From assembly GCA_903901915.1 (NCBI GenBank), contig CAIUSV010000012.1, forward strand, positions 62,001 through 126,000: 64,000 nucleotides of DNA, in the 5' to 3' direction. Origin of the DNA: an uncultured Rhodospirillaceae bacterium (GTDB lineage: Bacteria; Pseudomonadota; Alphaproteobacteria; Rhodospirillales; Magnetospirillaceae). The notes beneath the pieces are model-generated. The model had not been told where the DNA came from. It saw only the letters and a program-made list of their open reading frames with translations, and ran no database searches. Position numbers and translations under genes: made by a program. This document shows, piece after piece, positions 29,925 through 31,047 of this stretch (positions within the stretch are counted from its first letter, which is position 1; every line of letters starts with the position of its first letter).

Positions 29925-29953
29925 TTGATTTCGGGGGGGCTGGTCGTCATAAT
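29925..29953 (+). promoter_or_regulatory. Predicted rpoH promoter
   Basis: TTGATT (29925-29930), 17 bases, then CATAAT (29948-29953), close to the sigma70 consensus. Transcription would begin near 29960 and give a leader of about 210 bases before the rpoH ATG. The preceding C makes CTTGAT, which could also be read as a heat-shock type -35. Confidence 0.6.
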
Positions 29954-30019
29954 GTTACTAGGTATCACTGGTTGGCGCCCGAATGGGGTCGGCCGGTGCC
30001 GAGTTCGGAACGCTGTCGC

Positions 30020-30062
30020 CATGACGGGTTCCGGGTCATGTTGCTCAGACGGAGGATATGAC
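30020..30062 (+). promoter_or_regulatory. Two-state hairpin in the rpoH leader, with a ROSE-like Shine-Dalgarno stem
   Basis: GTCAT at 30035-30039 can pair with CATGAC just upstream (30020-30025) or with ATGAC just downstream (30058-30062). In the second fold the stem continues as TTGCTC (30041-30046) against GAGGA (30052-30056) with one bulged G and a five-base loop. That hides the Shine-Dalgarno GGAGG of the small reading frame at 30064. TTGCT paired against AGGA with an unpaired G is the core pattern of ROSE RNA thermometers, known upstream of alphaproteobacterial heat-shock genes. Confidence 0.5.
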
Positions 30063-30063
30063 G

Positions 30064-30093
30064 ATGCGTACGAAGATTTCGAGCTGCGACTAG
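30064..30093 (+). CDS. Nine-residue leader reading frame before rpoH
   Basis: ATG to TAG encoding MRTKISSCD. A GGAGG at 30051-30055 lies eight bases before the ATG, better placed than most starts in this window. It sits inside the rpoH leader, 78 bases before the rpoH start. It is too short to claim as a functional protein; it may be a translated leader whose ribosome traffic affects downstream folding. An ATG at 30058 in frame would add two residues. Confidence 0.35.
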   Translation: MRTKISSCD

Positions 30094-30171
30094 CTGTCTT
30101 CTCTGCTTTCGACGTCGCCCGCCCGTTCCCATGGCGCGCGGGTTTCCGAGTTTGATATGAGGAGGACGGTC

Positions 30172-31047
30172 ATGTCGGTTACGGCTCTTCCTGTCGTCGA
30201 TGGCGACGGGCTTTCAAAATACCTGAGGGATATCAAGGCGTTCCCCCTTCTCGATGCCGGGGAGGAGTTCATGCTGGCCAAACGGTGGGTCGATTACGGC
30301 GACACCGAGGCCGCCCATCGGCTGGTCACCAGCCATCTGCGCCTGGTGGCCAAGATCGCCCTGGGCTACCGCCATTACGGCTTGCCGGTCGCCGATCTGA
30401 TCGGCGAGGGCAATATCGGCCTCATGCGCGCGGTCAAGAAATTCGATCCCGATCGCGGGTTCCGCCTCGCCACCTACGCCATGTGGTGGATCAAGGCATC
30501 GATCAACGAGTTCGTGCTGAATTCGTGGTCGATGGTGCGGATCGGCACGTTGGCGGCCCAGAAGAAGCTGTTTTTCAACCTGCGCCGCATCAAGGCGCGG
30601 CTGCGGCTGCTGGAAAGTGGCGATCTCGCCCCCGAACACGTTGCCGCCATCGCCCGCGAGCTTGATGTCGGCGAGGGCGACGTGGTCGCGATGAACCGTC
30701 GCATGGCCGGGCGCGATACCTCGCTGAACGTGCCGGTGGGCGAGGGCGGCGTCGAAATCCAGGACCTGATGCCCGACGACGCCGAGAACCAGGAGGCGGC
30801 CTATGGCCGGCGCGAGGAACTCAGCAAGGGGTCGCGGCTGATCGCCCGGGCACTCGATTCGCTGACCGAGCGCGAGCGCGAGATCTTCATCGAGCGCCGC
30901 CTGCGCGAGGAGCCGGTGACGCTGGAGGAGCTGGGGGCGCGCTATGGGGTTTCCCGCGAACGTATCCGCCAGATCGAGGTCAAGGCGTTCGGCAAGGTTC
31001 GCGATCTGGTCCAGGCCGGTTTCATACCGGCGGTGGCGGGAGCCTGA
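30172..31047 (+). CDS. rpoH: RNA polymerase sigma factor RpoH (sigma-32)
   Basis: A 291-residue heat-shock sigma factor. Region 2 spans about 45-115 (DLIGEGNIGLMRAVKKFDPD and TYAMWWIKASINEFVLNSWS). The RpoH box QKKLFFNLR is at residues 130-138 and separates it from housekeeping and FliA factors. Region 4 spans about 225-285 (TLEELGARYGVSRERIRQIE). Start ATG 30172 follows AGGAGG; ATG 30157 would include the ribosome site in the gene and is rejected. A long structured leader with promoter-like elements precedes it. A 7-bp hairpin covers its stop codon. Confidence 0.95.
   Translation: MSVTALPVVDGDGLSKYLRDIKAFPLLDAGEEFMLAKRWVDYGDTEAAHRLVTSHLRLVAKIALGYRHYGLPVADLIGEGNIGLMRAVKKFDPDRGFRLATYAMWWIKASINEFVLNSWSMVRIGTLAAQKKLFFNLRRIKARLRLLESGDLAPEHVAAIARELDVGEGDVVAMNRRMAGRDTSLNVPVGEGGVEIQDLMPDDAENQEAAYGRREELSKGSRLIARALDSLTEREREIFIERRLREEPVTLEELGARYGVSRERIRQIEVKAFGKVRDLVQAGFIPAVAGA

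Follow-up and report, generated by a model that had tools for sequence, protein, structure and literature searches.

The rpoH gene in the window, that is, the whole 64,000-nucleotide stretch of DNA analysed here, is preceded by a leader that probably works as an RNA thermometer with two locks, with a small reading frame as a translational-coupling relay between them. The model, which is built from computed folds and from comparisons among relatives, runs as follows. The third hairpin of a ROSE-type element would mask the Shine-Dalgarno (SD) sequence of a nine-codon frame (lock 1), and heat would loosen this mask, as suggested by the known mode of the ROSE family and by the computed opening energy. 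A ribosome would then translate nine codons of nearly arbitrary sequence. The end of this frame and the bases past its stop are predicted to pair with the SD and the first codons of rpoH (lock 2), and according to our computations a ribosome at the frame's stop would cover the 5' arm of this helix, expose the rpoH SD and let rpoH be translated. The small frame would accordingly serve as a relay by translational coupling and not as a source of a sensed peptide. The features of the locus are listed below.

29925..29953, + strand: promoter-like site TTGATT-N17-CATAAT, directly upstream of the leader (1 found against a mean of 0.1 in shuffles)
29966..29998, + strand: ROSE hairpin 1 of the minimum-energy fold, with both-side changes at 10/10 pairs in 37 leaders
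30005..30034, + strand: ROSE hairpin 2 of the minimum-energy fold, with both-side changes at 7/8 pairs in 37 leaders
30035..30062, + strand: ROSE hairpin 3 of the minimum-energy fold, predicted to mask the SD of the nine-codon frame (GGAGG, 30051-30055), with an unpaired G at 30043
30064..30093, + strand: nine-codon leader frame MRTKISSCD with stop TAG, an open reading frame of a length common in the family
30081..30104, + strand: 5' arm of the putative second lock, made of the frame's last codons and the anti-SD past the stop (pair probabilities 0.70-0.96 at 30 C)
30118..30142, + strand: spacer hairpin inside the second lock, in the minimum-energy fold
30160..30187, + strand: 3' arm of the putative second lock from the folding of the window, comprising the rpoH SD (AGGAGG, 30160-30165), the start region and the first codons
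30172..31047, + strand: rpoH (sigma-32 type), the gene proposed to be controlled, matching TIGR02392 with 333.5 bits, above the cut-off

The rpoH start is the ATG at 30172. The host genome of the window (4.1 Mb in 93 contigs) carries a second rpoH (L001) on a different contig, 56% identical to that of the window. The ROSE-type model built here found no such leader at this paralog, and its single match in the host genome is the leader of the window. A promoter-like site comparable to the one listed above occurs in 46 of 50 family leaders under a lenient pattern applied without a shuffle control. The first-pass annotation, made from the window's letters, had reasoned that a transcription start downstream of 30062 would speak against control by this leader; in the window, as with the lenient pattern in those 46 leaders, the predicted site instead lies upstream.

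Most ROSE thermometers described so far belong to small heat-shock genes. The leader of the window (29966-30062) folds at minimum energy into three hairpins and thereby has the ROSE layout of two to four leader hairpins with the 3' one on the SD, and the unpaired G opposite the SD that goes with it. The bases on which the first-pass annotation had drawn are all in place, namely GTCAT (30035-30039), ATGAC (30058-30062) and TTGCTC opposite GAGGA with its unpaired G, as are GGAGG at 30051-30055, the ATG at 30064, the nine codons and the TAG at 30091-30093. The SD-masking hairpin that it described belongs to the minimum-energy leader fold; its five outer pairs are kept in 17/17 leaders of the genus, the window included, and its bulged G is unpaired in the folds of 50/50 family leaders.

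Covariation was examined in an alignment of 37 family leaders, including that of the window, taken from fetched rpoH upstream regions. The three-hairpin fold pairs in 94.1% of 1020 cells, and both-side changes are found at 18 of its 28 pairs, so that the ROSE fold came through the search for compensatory changes that had been suggested as a check. Both-side changes were observed in 125 cells compared with 39.2 in shuffles, on none of the five measures does any of 500 shuffles come up to the real alignment, nor does any version with slid arms, in which the signal is lost; these shuffles do not preserve relatedness, and the fold was derived in part from the same sequences. Of the 18 changing pairs, hairpins 1 and 2 account for 17. 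There is next to no variation in hairpin 3 (97.5% of cells paired, both-side change at 1/10 pairs), as would be expected of an SD together with its mask. The leader of the window by itself has a modest excess of free energy (z -1.75; 8/200 shuffles equally low), and the computed energy for opening the SD of the nine-codon frame declines from 7.5 kcal/mol at 25 C to 5.3 kcal/mol at 45 C. Fold and covariation thus argue for the earlier suggestion of a ROSE-type thermometer in the rpoH leader, which we regard as probable.

A second part of that suggestion fared differently. The first-pass annotation had envisaged two mutually exclusive hairpins, in which 30035-30039 pairs either within the SD-masking hairpin or with ATGAC at 30021-30025. 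The SD-masking hairpin holds, and we abandoned the alternative as a conserved switch. All five pairs of 30021-30025 with 30035-30039 are possible in only 3/17 genus leaders (the window, L009 and L040, the latter two with a G-U), and none shows a both-side change. In the conserved fold, 30021-30025 lie within hairpin 2, in its loop and its 3' arm; the 79.3% of paired cells in the alternative hairpin reflects the three bases that it shares with hairpin 2.

Comparison with the Rfam ROSE models, also proposed at the outset, gave scores below the gathering score for the window's leader (22.6 bits against 45 for RF00435 and 20.0 bits against 43 for RF02523). No match at the gathering score was found anywhere in the window, nor any at E 0.5 in 19 relatives, and a search of the host genome with RF00435 was uninformative, giving no match there or in the controls. 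The threshold is likewise missed by ROSE elements upstream of HSP20 genes in the same order (36.8, 32.8 and 27.6 bits; L193 is not listed), and one rpoH leader of the order, L172, reaches 30.6 bits. We therefore call the element ROSE-type, since a score under the gathering threshold does not make it a filed member of RF00435. The gene that follows is rpoH and not a small heat-shock protein gene; the latter is usual for ROSE and not strictly required, rhlA being an exception that is also listed in a 2026 review (PMC13104619).

The ROSE-type model matches 53 of 55 family genomes (37 of these leaders built the model) and finds nothing in G005 and G053. At E 0.01 it matches 214/297 genomes of the order, which corresponds to 161/242 outside the family, and at a stricter cut 55/289 genomes of the class. 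Fifty-one family leaders were read, a count that leaves out G011 and G015 with their model matches, and the element lies upstream of rpoH in all 51. In 21 of them it sits directly on the rpoH start, and in the other 30 on a small frame, with a spacer between this frame and rpoH; rpoH is hence the common target of direct and relayed leaders in the family. Outside the family, 39-40 loci of the order were examined, chosen for spread from among the matches listed. The element precedes rpoH in 34/39, directly in 2 and separated from it by a small frame or a frame-like stretch in 32, while 4/39 precede HSP20 genes (PF00011) and 1/39 is ambiguous.

The second lock, a long helix absent from the first-pass annotation, comes from folds that run from the ATG of the small frame to rpoH, where the rpoH SD is often paired with the end of the frame or with bases past its stop. 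In the window, 21 pairs connect 30081-30104 with 30160-30187. The helix is present in the minimum-energy fold of 26/28 family leaders and absent in L045 and L050, so that the computed pairing of a downstream SD with the end of the upstream frame, as translational coupling would have it, extends from the window to most of the family. The RNAalifold consensus of 16 genus leaders retains part of the lock (CGAC with GUCG and UUUC with GGAG) at a weak energy of -2.12 kcal/mol, with both-side changes at 2 of 8 pairs; CGAC and GUCG show no covariation because both hardly vary. In eight leaders of the genera g5 and g17, the consensus forms lock 2 from other bases, UCCCGG with CCGGGA. Pairing of this kind would explain why the peptides appear to end in -D* and -PG*.

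The two arms of lock 2 also seem to be matched to each other. Within the genus, own arms pair at -20.24 kcal/mol and swapped arms at -18.04 kcal/mol (p = 0.0014, 13 sequences). With one row per genus (n = 32, from 59 rows) the values are -14.21 and -12.53 (p = 0.0005; wider stretch p = 0.021), the main stretch having been picked after the folds had been viewed. The 59 rows are without ten of the 40 order loci, that is, the four with HSP20, the direct L183 and L188, the ambiguous L174, L190, which the pattern missed, and L169 and L198, which have no ATG start. Two control stretches show no effect in the swapped-arm test (p = 0.75 and 0.21). The test is not significant with one sequence per family (n = 17, p = 0.20), nor in the g5/g17 group alone (n = 8, two of them with misplaced rpoH starts, p = 0.17).

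To model the release of the rpoH SD, we kept a stretch of ribosome size unpaired, as a footprint, in each of 28 family leaders and compared the outcome with shuffles; close relatives are included, and the leaders are not independent. L016 (a near copy of L012) and L027 (with a 31-codon frame) were left out here and in the count of lock 2 folds. With the whole leader and the footprint at the frame's stop, release lies above the shuffle mean in 25/28 (mean z 2.36); in 16/28 it is equalled by no more than 5% of shuffles. The mean release is 3.21 kcal/mol at the stop compared with 0.55 at the start, and the stop exceeds the start in 26/28. Without the ROSE hairpins, release is above the shuffle mean in 26/28 (mean z 1.80; at most 5% of shuffles in 13/28). 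The failures are L017 in both runs, L045 without the ROSE hairpins, and L052 and L069 with the whole leader. When the footprint is moved along the frame, the gain averages about 0 at the start, climbs to 3.6 at the stop and is still high past it, where a ribosome is not normally expected, and the maximum falls exactly at the stop in 3/28. The window is among the better cases without its ROSE hairpins (5.4 against 0.9±1.8; 2% of shuffles equally high) and unremarkable with the whole leader (1.2 against -0.1±1.3; 13%, or 23% in a partial run). At 30 C and within 29960-30230, the cost of opening its rpoH SD is 5.0 when the leader is free; a ribosome at the start raises it to 7.1 and one at the stop lowers it to 2.6, these three values using another SD window than the shuffle tests. 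Shuffled spacers hide the rpoH SD almost as well as the real ones (mean z 0.74 and 0.62 for the real leaders). Among 17 of the order rows outside the family, release is above the shuffle mean in 9 (mean z 0.75), and because of this weakness we claim lock 2 for the family and not for the order. The idea that the tiny frame relays to rpoH, voiced in the first-pass annotation, is thus retained in part: the frame may act so according to these computations, and the route would be the second anti-SD helix instead of a sensed peptide. We see an even chance that sigma-32 synthesis in Magnetospirillum relatives, perhaps in much of the order, depends on two successive RNA locks: a ROSE-type thermometer that opens a nine-codon frame of almost any sequence, and then an anti-SD helix that a ribosome arriving at the stop of this frame removes from rpoH.

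The small frame has nine codons in 23/28 family frames and 7, 10, 10, 11 and 12 in the others, a count without L016 and the 31-codon L027. Codons 2-7 vary equally at all three positions, with 18 synonymous against 335 non-synonymous differences over all pairs of 12 genus frames, in which CGAC and the stop are retained. These are 12 of 16 genus frames, without L007 (a near copy) and without L011, L012 and L016, which have ten codons from the first ATG and nine from the second; these last three, the M. fulvum group, have the stop TGA instead of TAG after the same CGAC. What is conserved is, as far as these comparisons tell, translation over about nine codons and stopping there, and not the peptide. 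A conserved peptide function was rejected on the same counts. They make it highly doubtful that a nascent peptide, with its apparent ends -D*, -PG* or -SP, stalls the ribosome on a signal so that the stalled ribosome opens rpoH; such end motifs do recur within clades, but in the family they coincide with the bases that pair to rpoH. Recurrent ends of tiny leader peptides can reflect RNA pairing and not peptide function, which calls for caution elsewhere. Transcription attenuation, in which polymerase would be stopped by the spacer hairpin acting as a terminator, or by Rho at the untranslated spacer, unless the frame is translated, also seems improbable, if less so. A hairpin with a T-rich tract is found in 4/27 family leaders (L041, L043, L046 and L047, all from genera g5 and g17), whereas no terminator-like site is present in the window, where an intrinsic terminator was discarded as a candidate with 0 sites, or in the 15 leaders of its genus among the 27. 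We also dropped read-through of the stop. The frame after the TAG is open into rpoH in the window (30094-30171), where read-through would extend RpoH, and it is open in 5/28 family frames (L004, L042, L046, L047 and L052; the window and 4/27 others), roughly the chance expectation.

A more serious rival, still rather unlikely in our judgement, takes the nine-codon frame as a stand-by or mRNA-protecting ribosome site, where loading of ribosomes close to the 5' end in the heat stabilises the rpoH mRNA; translation of rpoH would then not depend on the frame, and the second helix would have no role. The slight hiding of the rpoH SD, the unremarkable whole-leader release of the window and the weakness of lock 2 outside the family would all suit it. 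However, it does not account for a release that increases towards the end of the frame, for lock 2 arms that are matched within the genus and over genera, or for the recurrence of nine codons in most family frames despite a free peptide. We consider it very unlikely that the leader is a functionless remnant, in which a decayed ROSE element and the beginning of a small heat-shock protein gene, otherwise lost, were left before rpoH. The same ROSE-type model does find HSP20 genes at four of the 39-40 order loci, and the small frames of L175 and L181 (second ATG) resemble HSP20 N-termini by eye, but decay is at odds with the strong covariation of the ROSE fold, the recurring frame length and the direct ROSE-rpoH fusions in 21/51 family leaders. 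The two-lock relay remains the reading that we prefer.

If the relay is real, it would be a natural cascade from a thermometer to a leader frame, and the cell would check both heat and translation capacity before its heat-shock response. Two locks would presumably sharpen the response and couple rpoH to the ribosome supply. The ROSE type is here placed on the gene of the heat-shock sigma factor itself, often gating it at one remove. Judged by title and start of abstract, none of the PMC matches listed describes ROSE on rpoH or a leader frame gated by a thermometer, within a scope that excludes most subscription journals and bioRxiv.

Among the closest known systems is ROSE itself (RF00435; Bradyrhizobium hspA and other small heat-shock genes), with which the window shares a multi-hairpin 5' leader whose last hairpin masks the SD, UUGCU opposite AGGA, and an unpaired G. 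The window's element differs in that it sits on rpoH, would mask a nine-codon frame and not the regulated gene, and scores under the gathering threshold. In ermC-type translational attenuators, the downstream SD becomes accessible when a ribosome sits on a short frame before it, as is proposed for the window; in contrast to these, the window has no conserved leader peptide, and its gate would be upstream thermosensing instead of stalling by a drug. Temperature-dependent translation of sigma-32 would be shared with the Escherichia coli rpoH thermometer, where the 5' leader together with as much as 229 nt of the coding sequence forms the sensor (PMC4166951), while the window has a separate ROSE-type domain and a putative relay frame. 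In Pseudomonas aeruginosa, the rhlA ROSE acts on rhlR in the rhlAB-R transcript, so that an element before the first gene alters the level of a downstream regulator (PMC13104619); there the gated intervening genes are full-length, unlike the nine-codon frame of the window, the end of which is predicted to pair with the regulator's SD. Synthetic translational coupling elements have been joined to toehold switches for signalling cascades (PMC11602170). Those are man-made, whereas the arrangement in the window is natural, with a thermometer as its probable gate.

L013, from the genus member G049, has ROSE directly on the rpoH start, without small frame and spacer, and the 16 other genus members read have both. 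On an RpoH tree of 83 rows, the direct and relayed states need 10 changes, at least 4 of them forced by well-supported branches, indicating that the two states replaced each other several times; the tree comes from a short search, has some long branches, omits L174 and L176 because of their shortness and does not tell which state is ancestral. If the relay is real, natural one-lock relatives, one of them in the same genus, would make the value of the relay step directly testable.

Resemblance seen by eye raises the possibility that a ROSE-HSP20 gene was captured and that its front part gave rise to the relay. The small frames of L175, L181 (second ATG) and L195 contain FSP stretches that look like the HSP20 N-termini DFSPL of L177 and L193. 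The Ser-Pro codons in these three frames can double as an anti-SD. A few leaders have another appearance: in L166, L176, L169 and L027, frames of 31 to 57 codons reach or overlap the rpoH start and look like classical close coupling.
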